A stretch of 64,000 bases of DNA from Bacteroidota bacterium (GTDB lineage Bacteria > Bacteroidota > Bacteroidia > B-17B0 > Aurantibacillaceae). The translations under genes and the position numbers were made by a program. Shown in pieces: positions 4,240 through 9,899 of the stretch (the first letter of the stretch is position 1; each line of letters starts with the position of its first letter). The stretch covers positions 62,001 through 126,000 of the forward strand of contig JAAFIL010000002.1 in the NCBI GenBank assembly GCA_013297775.1, given 5' to 3'. The notes below the pieces were generated by a model that was given only the letters and a program-made list of their open reading frames with translations, made no database searches and was not told the DNA's origin.

Positions 4240-4947
4240 TTATTTTGAAAAGCGCATTTTTAAAACCCCTAAAAACGCTTCCTTAAAAATTTTGGTACTC
4301 ATTTTACTTGTTCCTTCCACGCGATCTACAAATAAGATAGGTACTTCTTTAATTTTAAAACCTGCTTTATAAGTTTTGTATTTCATTTCAATTTGAAACG
4401 CGTAGCCTACATATTGAATAGCATCTAGCTGAATAGTTTCGAGAACTTTTCGGCGGTAACATTTAAAACCTGCCGTTGTATCTTTAACGGGCAACCACAA
4501 TACCATACGGGCATATACCGAACCAAAGTAACTTATCAAAATACGACTAAAGGGCCAATTTTTTACACTTCCACCTTTTACATAACGCGAGCCTATTGCC
4601 AAGTCGGCACCAGTTTCGCAGGTTTTATAAAGCCGTTCTAAATCATTTGGGTTATGCGAAAAATCACAATCCATTTCATAAATGTAGCTATACCCTTTTT
4701 GAAGCGCCCATTTAAACCCATGTATATAGGCTGTTCCTAAACCCAATTTACCTTTGCGTTCCTCTAAAAATAAACGATCTAAAAATTCAACTTGTAATTG
4801 CTTAACCTTGTTAGCAGTGCCATCGGGCGAGCCATCATCTACAATTAATAAATGAAACGGTTCGGTTAAAGCAAACACTTTACGAATCATTTTTTCAATG
4901 TTTTCGATTTCGTTAAAGGTTGGAATAATAACAATATGCTTTAACAT
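4240..4947 (-). CDS. Polyprenol monophosphomannose synthase-like family 2 glycosyltransferase
   Basis: The 235-residue protein has a GT-A fold: an N-terminal IIPTFNEIENIE motif, VDDGSPDGTA near residue 40 and the DCDFSHNP metal-binding segment near residue 92. GSRYVKGG and the AGFKCYRR region match dolichyl/polyprenyl-phosphate mannosyltransferases of the DPM1 type. It has no clear C-terminal membrane segments, so it probably works at the inner face of the cytoplasmic membrane, moving a sugar from GDP-mannose or a similar donor onto polyprenyl phosphate. The donor cannot be told from sequence. It appears monocistronic. Confidence 0.85.
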   Translation of the reverse strand: MLKHIVIIPTFNEIENIEKMIRKVFALTEPFHLLIVDDGSPDGTANKVKQLQVEFLDRLFLEERKGKLGLGTAYIHGFKWALQKGYSYIYEMDCDFSHNPNDLERLYKTCETGADLAIGSRYVKGGSVKNWPFSRILISYFGSVYARMVLWLPVKDTTAGFKCYRRKVLETIQLDAIQYVGYAFQIEMKYKTYKAGFKIKEVPILFVDRVEGTSKMSTKIFKEAFLGVLKMRFSK

Positions 4948-5323
4948 AGGAACGTCGAATATACGAATAAACTGTGGTTAGCGATAACTATTTCATATAA
5001 GTCGTTTCTTTTATTTTTTTAACAAGCGTTCGTAAAATTGAAGAGTTGGTTAACGAACTTAATGATTAAAAATAATTCTTTTGCTAACTTCTAGCAGCAG
5101 TTATTTTGTTATCAAACATAAAATTTTACTATTTTGAAAAAGGAGTGATTGCTTTAAATTCATCTCTAAATTAACGCTGAAAAATCAAATAAAAACTTAG
5201 TGAAATGTTACAACATATCGTGTTAGTTATCGAAAGCTATAAAAACTAAATCCTTTTTTTAAATGATAATACACCGCTGTAAGCCCAGTAAAATTAGGGA
5301 AAAGTAAAATAAATAAAAATAAA
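4948..5323. other. Intergenic region, no gene seen
   Basis: AT-rich sequence between the divergent glycosyltransferase and methionine operon. I see no open frame with coding character, no repeat shared with other gaps and no clear hairpin. It should hold the promoter of the glycosyltransferase on the minus strand, but no good TAnnTTTG box is visible there. Confidence 0.5.
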
Positions 5324-5356
5324 TTTGGAAAATCAAAAATCAATAGTTTAACTTTG
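5324..5356 (+). promoter_or_regulatory. Bacteroidota-type promoter of the methionine operon
   Basis: TTTG at 5324-5327 and TAACTTTG at 5349-5356 match the -33 (TTTG) and -7 (TAnnTTTG) elements of Bacteroidota housekeeping promoters, with a 21-base spacer. Transcription would begin near 5363, about 24 bases before the riboswitch P1 stem. Confidence 0.75.
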
Positions 5357-5386
5357 TATCAAATTAATTACCTCTAATGTGTGTAG

Positions 5387-5521
5387 TTAATTTATCAAGA
5401 TGCGGCGAGAGAATAGGCTCATTGACCCGCGGCAACCAACTAAAAGTTGAAGCTTAGGCCGAAATTGGAAAACAGGTGCCAAATCCTACCTCTGATGAGA
5501 GTAAGAGGAAAGATAAATTAA
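5387..5521 (+). promoter_or_regulatory. SAM-I (S-box) riboswitch
   Basis: The aptamer is closed by a perfect 10-bp P1 stem: TTAATTTATC (5387-5396) pairs with GATAAATTAA (5512-5521). Inside are the conserved AGA-GCGG-GAGA-GGCTC block, the GACCC-GCGGCAACC segment of the P2/J2-3 core, the GGTGCCAAATCC segment of P3 and the GATGAGAG/GAGGAAAGA segment of P4/J4-1. These are the hallmark positions of the S-box family. SAM binding would stabilise P1. No terminator follows at once; the next element is the start codon of a short ORF 11 bases later, so control may act through that ORF. Confidence 0.92.
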
Positions 5522-5532
5522 AAATTAAAAAA

Positions 5533-5649
5533 ATGAAACAGGCACACGATTTTCTTAAAAAAAGTAATTCAAAAAAAACTCCTTCCATTTTGCATTGGGC
5601 GCACATCTGTTGGTGTATGTGTTGCTGTTGTTGTTGCATGTTGAGCTAA
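5533..5649 (+). CDS. Cysteine-rich leader peptide (38 residues) downstream of the SAM riboswitch
   Basis: The ATG at 5533 lies 11 bases after the riboswitch P1 stem and opens a 38-codon frame ending at TAA 5647-5649. The N-terminal half is basic and polar (MKQAHDFLKKSNSKK). The C-terminal end reads C-W-C-M followed by six cysteine codons in a row, then M-L-S-stop, giving eight Cys and two Met in the last 13 codons. Clustered regulatory codons next to the stop are the layout of amino acid attenuator leaders; cysteine-run leaders are known upstream of sulfur genes in mycobacteria. It heads an operon that assimilates sulfide into homocysteine. I infer a regulatory role; a short metal-binding peptide is the alternative. 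Confidence 0.75.
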   Translation: MKQAHDFLKKSNSKKTPSILHWAHICWCMCCCCCCMLS

Positions 5650-5652
5650 TCC

Positions 5653-5717
5653 AAAAGGTATTTATAATACTTTTTAGTTGAAGAAGCTAACATCGCTTCT
5701 CGGAAATCTCTATTTCC
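5653..5717 (+). promoter_or_regulatory. Hairpin series after the Cys-rich leader (candidate attenuator)
   Basis: Just 3 bases after the leader stop, AAAAGGTATT (5653-5662) pairs with AATACTTTTT (5666-5675), a weak terminator-like hairpin whose 3' arm ends in T5. Two further stems follow: AGAAGC/GCTTCT (5682-5687 with 5695-5700) and GGAAAT/ATTTCC (5702-5707 with 5712-5717). A ribosome stalled on the cysteine run would cover the first arm. A possible -7 box, TACGTTTG, lies at 5744-5751, so an internal promoter cannot be excluded. Confidence 0.4.
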
Positions 5718-5784
5718 AAAACTCAATTCAATCAATCATTTATTACGTTTGGGTAAACACCCGAGCAAATTAAAATAAAATAAA

Positions 5785-6012
5785 ATGGAAACTTTTAATA
5801 CCACTTCTTTAAACGCCCTTAATTTACTAAACGATAAACAATTTAATTCTTTCATTCAATTCCAAGCCAATTATGGCACTAGCATAACAGGTGGACATTT
5901 ACCTAATTACTTTTCGGATAAACAACGCCAACGTTTAATAACCGAAGTGAATTTGCTAACGGAACCAGAATTGCGTGGATTAGTGCAAACCGTTTATCAA
6001 TCGAAAAATTAA
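5785..6012 (+). CDS. Small protein of unknown function in the methionine operon (75 residues)
   Basis: This acidic-neutral, Asn/Gln/Leu-rich 75-residue protein has no cysteine, no signal peptide and no membrane segment. It looks helical, with segments such as LNALNLLNDKQFNSFIQFQ and DKQRQRLITEVNLLTEPELRGLVQ. Codon use matches the neighbouring genes. It lies between the riboswitch/leader and metY, 179 bases before metY, so it is probably co-transcribed and SAM-controlled. I do not recognise the family. Its place at the head of the operon suggests a partner or regulator of sulfur amino acid synthesis, but nothing in the sequence shows this directly. Confidence 0.6.
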   Translation: METFNTTSLNALNLLNDKQFNSFIQFQANYGTSITGGHLPNYFSDKQRQRLITEVNLLTEPELRGLVQTVYQSKN

Positions 6013-6155
6013 CGCTTAACGCAAAAATATTGACCTTAAAGTTTGATCACCTTTACGTCCGTCAATTCAATAAACCAGAACCCTTTACGTGCTATAAGAA
6101 CTTAAAGGAAAAAATAAAATAAATAAATCTTAAACCAATCGAAACGGACTTATAG

Positions 6156-7541
<1,386 letters not shown>

Positions 7542-7596: not shown

Positions 7597-8643
7597 ATGA
7601 AAAAAATCCTTCACCATCGCCAAGCATTTGTGTTAGAGAACGGACGTGTTTTACCCGAACTTCAAATTGCCTATCACACCTACGGGGTATTAAATGCCGA
7701 TGCCAGTAATGTGGTGTGGGTGTGCCACGCTTTAACAGCCAACAGCGATGTGTTCGACTGGTGGTCGGGGTTGTTTGGTGCCAACGATTTATTCAACCCA
7801 AACGATTACTTTATTGTGTGTGCCAATAATTTAGGTTCGTGTTATGGCACTACTGGCCCCATTGTCAACAACACAGGTAATTCGTTGTATGCGGGTTTTC
7901 CTTTAGTTACCATTCGCGATATGGTAGAGGTACATAAACTTTTAAAAGCACATTTAGGCATTCAAAAAATTAATGTACTCATTGGTGGCTCGCAAGGTGG
8001 TCAACAGGCTTTAGAGTGGGCTATATCCGAAAACGAACACATCGAACACTTGGTATTAGTTGCTTGTAATGCCAGGCATTCGGCTTGGGGTATTGCGTTT
8101 AACGAAAGCCAACGTTTAGCCATTAAAGCCGACCGCACGTATTATGGTAATACCCCTGATGGCGGGCAAAAAGGATTAGCCGCAGCACGAAGTATGGCTT
8201 TATTAAGTTACCGTAATTACGAGCCTTATAACGCTACACAAACCGATGCAGAAGACGATAAACTAAACGACTACAAAGCGGCGGCCTATCAACGTTACCA
8301 AGGCGAAAAATTAGTGAAGCGTTTTAATGCGTATGCCTATGTAACTCTGGCCAATGCTATGGATACGCACCATGTGGGGCGTAAGCGCGGCAGCATAGTG
8401 GCTGCACTACAATTAGTGAAAGCGAAAACTTTAGTAATAGGTATCACGAGCGATGTTTTATTTCCTCACAACGAGCAACAATTGTTAGCGCAACATATTT
8501 CAGATGCTAAGTTAATTACCATTACTTCGCCTTATGGACACGATGGATTTTTAATTGAAACCAAACAATTAAGTCAGCAAATTCAAAAATTTTTAATAAA
8601 AACAAAAACACAAGTAGAAGCTACTGTAAGCTATCCACTTTAA
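7597..8643 (+). CDS. metX: Homoserine O-acetyltransferase
   Basis: This 348-residue alpha/beta hydrolase-fold acyltransferase has the MetX pattern: ELQIAYHTYG near the N-terminus, VWVCHALTANSDVFDWW, the nucleophile serine in GGSQGGQQALEW near residue 131, the late aspartate region TSDVLFPHNEQQ and the catalytic histidine in YGHDGFLIE. It transfers acetyl from acetyl-CoA to homoserine, supplying MetY. It sits between metY and homoserine dehydrogenase, with an 11-base gap to the latter, so the three form one route from aspartate semialdehyde to homocysteine. The family also includes succinyl-specific members, but the MetY partner fits acetyl. Confidence 0.92.
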   Translation: MKKILHHRQAFVLENGRVLPELQIAYHTYGVLNADASNVVWVCHALTANSDVFDWWSGLFGANDLFNPNDYFIVCANNLGSCYGTTGPIVNNTGNSLYAGFPLVTIRDMVEVHKLLKAHLGIQKINVLIGGSQGGQQALEWAISENEHIEHLVLVACNARHSAWGIAFNESQRLAIKADRTYYGNTPDGGQKGLAAARSMALLSYRNYEPYNATQTDAEDDKLNDYKAAAYQRYQGEKLVKRFNAYAYVTLANAMDTHHVGRKRGSIVAALQLVKAKTLVIGITSDVLFPHNEQQLLAQHISDAKLITITSPYGHDGFLIETKQLSQQIQKFLIKTKTQVEATVSYPL

Positions 8644-8654
8644 AAACGTAAATT

Positions 8655-9899
8655 ATGTCTCATTCAACTTTAACAATAGGCTTATTTGGCTTTGGCTGCG
8701 TAGGGCAGGGCTTATACCATGTTTTACAAAATAGCAAAGGCTTTAAAGCTGGAATAAAAAAAATAGCCGTCAAAGATCCTCATAAAAAAAGAAGTTTATC
8801 GGCTAATGTTTTTACATTTAATAAGCACGAGCTATTAGAAGATCCGGAAATTAACTTAATTGTTGAGTTAATTGACGATGCCGATGAAGCCTTTCAAATT
8901 GTAAAGGCGGCGTTGCAAAATAAAAAACACGTAGTAACAGCTAATAAAAAAATGTTGGCCAATCATTTAGAAGAACTCTTACACTTAAAAGAAGCCAATG
9001 GTGTTTCGCTGCTTTACGAAGCCTCTTGTTGCGGCAGTATTCCCATCATACGCACATTAGAAGAGTACTATGACAATGAGCAAATTCACCATGTATCGGG
9101 CATTTTTAATGGAACAACCAATTATATTTTAACCAAAACACTCACCGAAAAATTGAGTTATGCCGAGGCTTTGAAACAGGCACAAGAAAAAGGTTTTGCC
9201 GAAAGCGATCCTACTAACGATGTAGAAGGATTTGACCCTAAGTTTAAGGCTGTTATTATTGCCTTACATGCGTTTGGTATTATAGCCAAGCCCAATTCCA
9301 TTTTAAATTTAGGAATTACAACCTTATCTGACTACGATAGCCACTATGCCAAAGAAAAGAACTATAAAATTAAATTAGTACCTACCATTCAACGATTTAA
9401 AAATGGAGCGGTGAGTTTATTTGTGTTGCCTAAGTTCATTAATGCCGACCATGCTTTGTATGCTGTTGACAATGAGTTTAATGGTGTGTTAGTAGATGGC
9501 GATTTTAGTGGCGAGCAGTTTTTAAAAGGACGAGGCGCAGGCGGAAACCCAACAGGGGCGGCTGTTTTATCAGATATATCGGCTTTATCATTTGGCTATC
9601 ACTACGAATTTAAAAAACGCCAGCAGTTAGAAAAAAATACACTTACGCAAGCTGTTAGTTTGAAAGTATATATTCGGTATGCAACACTTTTAGATTTAGA
9701 GCAGTTAAAAATAAGTACTATCTACGAGCAATACACCAGCGAATATTATAACTACGTGATAGCGCAAGTAGATTTACGCGAACTTATCCAATCGCGCTCA
9801 TACATTCTACAACACCAATTATTTATAGCACTTGTAGGCGATACCATTGCTTTAAGCGAAGCGTTTATAAATGTTGAACAAATGGTGCAGTTAAACTAG
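8655..9899 (+). CDS. Homoserine dehydrogenase
   Basis: The 414-residue protein has an N-terminal NAD(P)-binding Rossmann motif (GLFGFGCVGQGLYHVLQ), TANKKMLANH near residue 97, the FNGTTNYILTK segment near residue 150 and the catalytic DPTNDVEGFDPKFKAVI region near residue 180, all typical of homoserine dehydrogenase. It reduces aspartate semialdehyde to homoserine, feeding MetX. The C-terminal ~90 residues may be a small regulatory domain, although a clean ACT motif is not evident. There is no fused aspartokinase, unlike ThrA. As third enzyme of the operon it is probably under SAM control through the upstream riboswitch. Confidence 0.9.
   Translation: MSHSTLTIGLFGFGCVGQGLYHVLQNSKGFKAGIKKIAVKDPHKKRSLSANVFTFNKHELLEDPEINLIVELIDDADEAFQIVKAALQNKKHVVTANKKMLANHLEELLHLKEANGVSLLYEASCCGSIPIIRTLEEYYDNEQIHHVSGIFNGTTNYILTKTLTEKLSYAEALKQAQEKGFAESDPTNDVEGFDPKFKAVIIALHAFGIIAKPNSILNLGITTLSDYDSHYAKEKNYKIKLVPTIQRFKNGAVSLFVLPKFINADHALYAVDNEFNGVLVDGDFSGEQFLKGRGAGGNPTGAAVLSDISALSFGYHYEFKKRQQLEKNTLTQAVSLKVYIRYATLLDLEQLKISTIYEQYTSEYYNYVIAQVDLRELIQSRSYILQHQLFIALVGDTIALSEAFINVEQMVQLN

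Follow-up and report, generated by a model that had tools for sequence, protein, structure and literature searches.

A SAM-I riboswitch in series with a cysteine-codon leader ORF as a probable two-input RNA leader for sulfur assimilation in Bacteroidota

The S-box and the leader ORF upstream of metY

The window, a stretch of 64,000 nucleotides of Bacteroidota DNA, contains a SAM-I riboswitch (S-box) followed by a short ORF that ends in a cluster of Cys and Met codons, and then by metY, metX and a homoserine dehydrogenase gene. The features are as follows.

5325..5356, + strand: putative Bacteroidota-type promoter (TTG, 21 nt, TAACTTTG), assigned by sequence; the motif is conserved upstream of S-boxes
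5387..5521, + strand: SAM-I (S-box) riboswitch, from Rfam RF00162 and the fold
5533..5649, + strand: leader ORF, 38 codons, MKQAHDFLKKSNSKKTPSILHWAHICWCMCCCCCCMLS, from the ORF list; its position and C-terminal Cys/Met cluster are conserved
5608..5640, + strand: Cys/Met codon cluster C-W-C-M-C6-M, read from the sequence
5653..5675, + strand: AU-rich hairpin H1, -5.3 kcal/mol
5682..5700, + strand: hairpin H2, from the fold
5702..5717, + strand: hairpin H3, from the fold
5785..6012, + strand: conserved 75-aa ORF, the first gene after the leader, aligned with 17 homologues that are 28-51% identical to it
6192..7541, + strand: metY, Pfam Cys_Met_Meta_PP, 1.9e-130
7597..8643, + strand: metX, Pfam Abhydrolase_1, 2.7e-19, alpha/beta hydrolase fold
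8655..9899, + strand: homoserine dehydrogenase (hom), Pfam Homoserine_dh, 1.2e-52

Rfam matched positions 5389-5519 to RF00162 with 62.1 bits. The gathering score is 44.4, and by sequence and structure the element is thus a SAM-I riboswitch. The fold gave a P1 of 10 bp, 5387-5396 with 5512-5521, as in the original prediction, which had named an S-box with a perfect 10-bp P1. The core letters of the aptamer are kept among 27 S-boxes, which are predicted to bind SAM. An intrinsic-terminator expression platform is the common form of SAM-I riboswitches and is no requirement for membership. None was found between P1 and the leader ORF.

The leader ORF starts 11 bases past P1 with an ATG at 5533-5535 and stops with TAA at 5647-5649. 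Its C-terminal end is CWCMCCCCCCMLS, with the six-Cys run encoded at 5620-5637, so the predicted 38-codon ORF with six Cys was recovered with its spacing. The leader peptide belongs to no NCBIfam family, and its Pfam matches were at chance level only (E 0.06 and 0.48, under the cut-off).

The original prediction had placed a metY-metX-homoserine dehydrogenase operon downstream. These genes are present; the 75-aa ORF at 5785-6012, which the prediction did not include, precedes them. We take metY to belong to the O-acetylhomoserine sulfhydrylase family, and 7597..8643 to be metX, homoserine O-acetyltransferase, a name given from sequence and context. Alignment of 18 members of the 75-aa family showed invariant L, GG, P, R, N, E and N residues. 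The protein has no Pfam family and no fold match in PDB (best E 3.9), and its AlphaFold model is weak and helical (pLDDT 65.7, pTM 0.38). Loci with the 75-aa ORF include L002, L017 and L018, and an additional family member is visible in L057.

The leader ORF within the genus

S-box listings for the genome of the window and for 36 genomes of the genus yielded 61 elements, which were sorted by next gene. An S-box was scored as having a leader if an ORF started ≤25 nt from the S-box end and encoded ≥3 Cys in its last 12 residues. The leader ORF was present at 20/20 S-boxes before metX/metY. It was found at 0/41 of the other S-boxes, namely 0/37 before metH, 0/3 before metB and 0/1 orphan. The 20 metX/metY S-boxes consist of 19 sorted by motif plus L020, which the metX motif missed and which was assigned to metX by other evidence. 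A MetX match with E ≤1e-30 was found in 21/40 genus genomes, and all 21, including G215, have the S-box and leader.

Runs of five Cys codons are rare in the window's 4.35-Mb genome, where 8 matches fall at 6 places. Given this rarity and the ORF at 20/20 S-boxes of this type, the association is more than chance. The original prediction had proposed looking for a Cys-run ORF at this place in relatives; it is there, and the third base of its Cys codons varies between T and C.

The metH S-boxes have a different arrangement. A terminator of -10 kcal/mol or better was found at 24/24 metH S-boxes tested, a hand-picked part of the 37, and at 0 in shuffles.

Two further observations concern the other S-boxes of the genus. 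The orphan, an S-box of leader type (L042, G027:C34), lies before an ORF that is presumably chitinase-like, and no Cys-run ORF follows it. In L046, L049, L050, L060 and L076, and also in L062 and L070, an extra gene separates the S-box from metH; we take it to be methyltransferase-like or AlbA-like.

Leaders across Bacteroidota

Genome contigs were scanned with a pattern consisting of an S-box core and then four Cys codons, which produced at least 118 stretches. A covariance model built from the 27 S-boxes identified an S-box in 95/118 listed pattern loci, and the 23/118 without one were excluded. A leader ORF was present in 95/95. Since the pattern required Cys codons, these loci measure breadth, never frequency. 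The start codon, which was ATG in 78, GTG in 16 and TTG in 1 of the listed loci, lies 2-18 nt past P1, and in 79/95 it lies at 6-10 nt. Titles obtained for 66/95 loci include Mucilaginibacter, Hymenobacter, Saprospiraceae, Cyclobacteriaceae, Pontibacter, Fulvivirga and Crocinitomicaceae, and one is simply 'bacterium'; the named taxa are, we assume, all Bacteroidota.

The next gene in the 95 listed loci was sorted by prefix matching. It was metY in 53, metX in 5, ferredoxin in 4 and metY-like in 2, while 2 loci had no long ORF and 29 fell outside the prefix rule. Ten of the 95 next genes were compared with NCBIfam. Four were PAPS/APS reductases and the others were sulfite/nitrite-reductase-like, O-succinylhomoserine-sulfhydrylase-like, ferredoxin, thioredoxin-reductase-like, amino-acid permease and OsmC-like. 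A curated NCBIfam cut-off was passed by the ferredoxin and the four PAPS/APS reductases alone. Six of these ten genes appear to serve sulfur assimilation.

In Hymenobacter-type loci (L085, L097, L106, L131, L144, L147 and similar ones) the Cys-run ORF has no ATG and was read from GTG. In several of these the next long ORF starts like that of L085, which is amino-acid-permease-like by NCBIfam.

A group of 21 loci lying outside the DNA pattern was chosen for ≥4 Cys in the last 12 residues. It comprises 19 loci of the genus and 2 from other families. L057, with 3 Cys in the last 12 residues, is absent from this group and is counted among the genus 20.

The promoter motif TAnnTTTG occurs 5′ of the S-box in 98/116 loci, compared with 8.7 expected from shuffles. 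An internal promoter at 5744, a start that would bypass the leader and that the original prediction had listed as evidence against itself, was considered and rejected. Between the leader and the next gene TAnnTTTG occurs in 1/21 loci, the window itself, and 1.5 were expected. The motif at 5744 is therefore unconserved, and gives no reason to assume that the leader is bypassed.

Codon-level constraint in the leaders

Cys and Met are concentrated at the ends of the leaders. Across the 116 leaders, Cys makes up 51% and Met 11% of the last 12 residues, as against 0.9% and 1.0%, respectively, of the remainder; the leaders are mutually related and are hence not independent samples. At least one Met occurs in the last 12 residues of 96/116 leaders. 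Cys is the final residue in 93/116, and in 116/116 only 0-4 residues follow the last Cys. The open frame spans 27-47 codons in the 116 leaders, with start and stop similarly placed. Its Cys codons are not fixed as RNA letters. Among 140 Cys codons from the 21 loci the third base was T in 82 and C in 58, and 112 runs of ≥4 Cys had 48 different codings. Judged from these alignments, the constraint is on the codons of the leader, beyond the RNA alone.

The leaders thus share two traits with described regulators: a conserved short ORF in which codons for the regulated amino acid are grouped, as in leader-peptide attenuators, and a C-terminal Cys run beside the stop, as in the polycysteine attenuators of mycobacteria.

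The same data bear on whether the ORF is translated at all. A conserved GU-rich RNA element could contain the Cys-run ORF as an untranslated accident, and in one group part of the Cys run can indeed pair with the post-stop region. We find this hardly credible given the frame of 27-47 codons with similarly placed start and stop, the T or C in third position with its 48 codings, and a leader body that gives no folding signal (mean z +0.24).

They also bear on what the cluster might sense. In place of tRNA charging, the thiols of the nascent Cys/Met-rich peptide could themselves report on redox state, sulfide or a metal. A cluster of such residues is a possible ligand for soft metals, and Cys is the final residue in most of the leaders. 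From leader to leader, however, the cluster differs in how many residues it has, in their order and in its share of Met, and the Cys spacing is not fixed. At the extreme C-terminus it would still be within the ribosome. The genes downstream serve the synthesis of sulfur amino acids, and S-box-less relatives (below) add attenuator-like terminators. We regard a peptide sensor as very improbable.

Structures 3′ of the leader stop

In the window, positions 5651-5725 fold at -16.3 kcal/mol (z -3.97). The original prediction took the hairpin at 5653-5675, here H1, for a terminator-like structure that would act in classical attenuation. The hairpin exists and starts 3 nt after the leader stop, as such an attenuator would have it. 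It is AU-rich and weak at -5.3 kcal/mol, 15/200 shuffles fold equally well, and a terminator scan reported no intrinsic terminator in 4800-6200 (0.7 expected).

Two sets of S-box-type loci were used to look for terminators more widely. One set of 93 loci comprised 72 listed pattern loci, in which the next ORF was ≥90 aa and 60-260 nt on, plus the 21. The other set of 101 comprised 80/83 listed pattern loci (three were judged false and dropped) plus the 21. All 80 and all 72 are S-box positive. With a looser U-tract rule, 37/101 loci had a terminator-like hairpin at -6 kcal/mol or better compared with 16% of shuffles, and 9/101 at -12 compared with 1.8%. With a stricter U-tract rule, the count at -6 was 24/93 compared with 20% in shuffles, a small excess, and at -10 kcal/mol or better it was 9/93 compared with 5.2%. 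As the stricter of the two rules shows little excess, an intrinsic terminator was rejected as the output of the S-box type, most loci of which have no strong intrinsic terminator after the leader. Some loci do carry terminator-like hairpins under the looser rule, but the stricter rule and the weakness of the window's hairpin make classical attenuation by the 5653-5675 hairpin quite improbable.

The region 3′ of the stop nevertheless folds more strongly than shuffled sequence. The mean z over 93 loci was -1.71 for the 72 nt after the stop, as against the +0.24 of the leader body and 0.06 for the 60 nt before the gene. The distance from the leader stop to the next ORF has a median of 126 nt in these loci (64-253 by selection).

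H1 and H2 were examined in an alignment of 26 related leaders, which are 26 of 27 prepared references (L165 was excluded; L104 and L178 had been excluded earlier). Their positions were paired in 88.4% of cells, with 15 cells altered on both sides, and 0/500 shuffles did equally well. Changes on both sides affected 5 pairs, a count that 78/500 shuffles also reached, and the alignment had itself supplied the structure under test. The first hairpin in these leaders pairs the segment directly 3′ of the stop. This same segment, the 5′ arm of H1, can also pair with the Cys run in 94.8% of cells, without covariation, so a switch between both pairings is only suggested.

When 19 post-leader regions from the genus were folded jointly, almost no consensus structure emerged (-0.12 kcal/mol). 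The idea that the leader sequesters the start of the next gene was rejected as well. Compared with shuffled leaders, predicted start pairing was higher in the 21 loci and lower in the 72, with no consistent direction.

metY leaders with and without an S-box

A class-wide search identified close MetY homologues (E ≤1e-190) in 40/217 genomes, and the loci were sorted by eye. An S-box with a Cys-run leader preceded 21/40 metY genes. Two (G061, G109) had an S-box with a weak Cys/Met leader, and two (G132, G167) an S-box with an ORF without Cys. Met/Cys leaders without an S-box were found at 8/40. The remaining 7/40 had neither element; they include G380 (L356), which has an ambiguous ORF containing Cys and Met. 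In the 15 census loci classed as S-box-less, neither the covariance model nor Rfam at the gathering score found an S-box.

Seven of the eight S-box-less leader loci contain two Met/Cys ORFs in tandem upstream of metY (L322, L324, L338, L340, L341, L342, L343), for example HMMCMCCCMAPP in L338. In the S-box-less group an intrinsic terminator of -12 kcal/mol or better follows 11/15 leader segments, compared with 1.3% in shuffles. Both ORFs are followed by a terminator in 5/7 tandem loci; it is missing at L340, at L346 and after the first ORF of L322. These tandem leaders look like attenuators of the textbook type.

They suggest that the inputs a cell uses before MetY synthesis are Met (or SAM) and Cys. 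On sequence evidence, SAM sensing and Met/Cys-codon sensing appear to stand in for one another before metY. The swap between S-box and Met/Cys-codon attenuator, seen in front of orthologous metY genes, offers a natural experiment in which one RNA regulator replaces another.

A two-input reading of the leader

The conserved arrangement of S-box and Cys-run leader in series, before genes that use sulfide, is best read as a two-input switch. On comparative evidence, we assign a probability of about 0.72 to the leader being a cis-acting, two-input RNA regulator of sulfur assimilation. The original prediction had proposed such a switch; the in-series pairing proved to be conserved, and the intrinsic-terminator output did not hold up.

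P1 and the ORF lie too close together to leave much space for an expression platform. Most simply, a P1 stabilized by SAM would block the leader start, a step deduced from the spacing and the absence of another platform. With SAM bound, P1 would close just upstream of the leader start codon and initiation would be blocked. With little SAM, P1 would open and the leader ORF could be translated. Leader positions -12 and -13 correspond to 5521 and 5520, the final two bases of P1, and passages of PMC6847099 report that adenines at -12 and -13 promote initiation in F. johnsoniae. When Cys-tRNA (or Met-tRNA) is scarce, the ribosome would stall at the Cys/Met cluster before the stop, which is the presumed sensing step. 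Whether the ribosome is absent, stalled or at the stop would determine which of the post-stop hairpins form, and thereby the expression of the next gene. Attenuators in general, and the S-box-less relatives with their terminators, lead one to expect that Cys shortage would raise expression and high SAM would shut it off. Candidate OFF devices are Rho-dependent termination, translational control and RNA decay.

In its most specific form, translation of the attenuator peptide would be the riboswitch's only output: SAM would decide whether a ribosome is admitted, charging of Cys and Met tRNA would decide where it stops, and across Bacteroidota some lineages would use tandem Met/Cys-codon attenuators instead. 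We consider the odds of this version evenly balanced.

Alternatively, the S-box and a plain Cys attenuator could act independently, the S-box for example through a distant alternative fold, and their spacing would be functionally meaningless. The elements do occur apart, as metH and metB S-boxes without a leader and as Met/Cys leaders without an S-box. The start codon, however, lies 6-10 nt past P1 in most of the 95 listed loci, and no terminator platform separates P1 from the ORF, in contrast to the metH S-boxes tested. For these reasons we felt that independence was unlikely.

If the two-input reading is right, two classical RNA controls are joined in one conserved leader, metabolite sensing and the sensing of tRNA charge can be combined, and sulfur regulation in a large environmental phylum acquires a testable model. 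Many Bacteroidota would then probably consult a pair of sulfur signals within a single RNA before they produce enzymes of sulfur assimilation. A regulatory role is likewise suggested for some Cys-run ORFs of Bacteroidota that have no annotation.

Relation to known systems

No description of an S-box paired with a Cys-run leader was found among the matches listed in the main text of open-licence PubMed Central full texts. The ingredients are each known, and the combination of S-box and Cys leader, together with the swap, appears to be new.

Polycysteine attenuators encoded by leaderless sORFs of mycobacteria were reportedly described by Canestrari in 2020. They are leaderless by title, while the present ORF comes after an S-box, which in turn has the promoter motif on its upstream side. 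From the position of that motif, transcription would start ahead of the S-box, and the leader ORF is accordingly predicted not to be leaderless.

Mycobacterial polycysteine sORFs are mentioned as translation attenuation in a passage of PMC13236596. Those attenuators, and the Cys leaders of Actinobacteria in excerpts of PMC1262725, resemble the present leaders in having a short ORF with a Cys run near its stop before sulfur genes. They belong to another phylum and, in those excerpts, have no riboswitch in front, whereas here the ORF follows an S-box. The same excerpts report no conserved terminator hairpins for the Actinobacteria leaders, and Rho is suggested. The pairing of S-box and Cys leader is not described in passages of PMC13236596, PMC2211319 and PMC7366714.

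Riboswitch control of an upstream ORF has a parallel in M. tuberculosis ppe2. According to parts of PMC11260477, a riboswitch there controls a uORF whose translation the downstream gene needs. By the same parts of that source, the ppe2 ligand is B12 and stop and start overlap tightly, while here the next ORF lies well past the leader stop; unlike the ppe2 uORF as presented there, the leader here carries clustered codons of one kind. The SAM-I riboswitch of Xanthomonas campestris, in sections of PMC7270179, is similar in having a second input that reports Met charging. In that case uncharged initiator tRNA binds the expression platform directly, and those sections describe no leader ORF.

Two further attenuators are comparable. 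The uORFC-8-2 before cysS in Rhodobacterales, as given in portions of PMC8632094, is a uORF with tandem Cys codons and a presumed attenuator. It differs in having two Cys codons and an intrinsic terminator and in belonging to another phylum, and those portions mention no riboswitch. In the same phylum as the window, leader-peptide attenuation is reported before amino-acid operons of Flavobacterium psychrophilum in passages of PMC9723704, which name no Cys leader and make no link to a SAM riboswitch.

Other S-boxes and Cys-run frames

In L239 and L252 the S-box precedes an ORF whose start, in our estimation, resembles a TonB-linked outer-membrane receptor, perhaps a Met uptake system. The S-box in L277 precedes an ORF that we assume to be similar to cysteine desulfurase. 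A further Cys-run frame, SMFSCCCCCCFGCLGSCCCC, lies in the window's genome at G000:C38:696-713 (L203).
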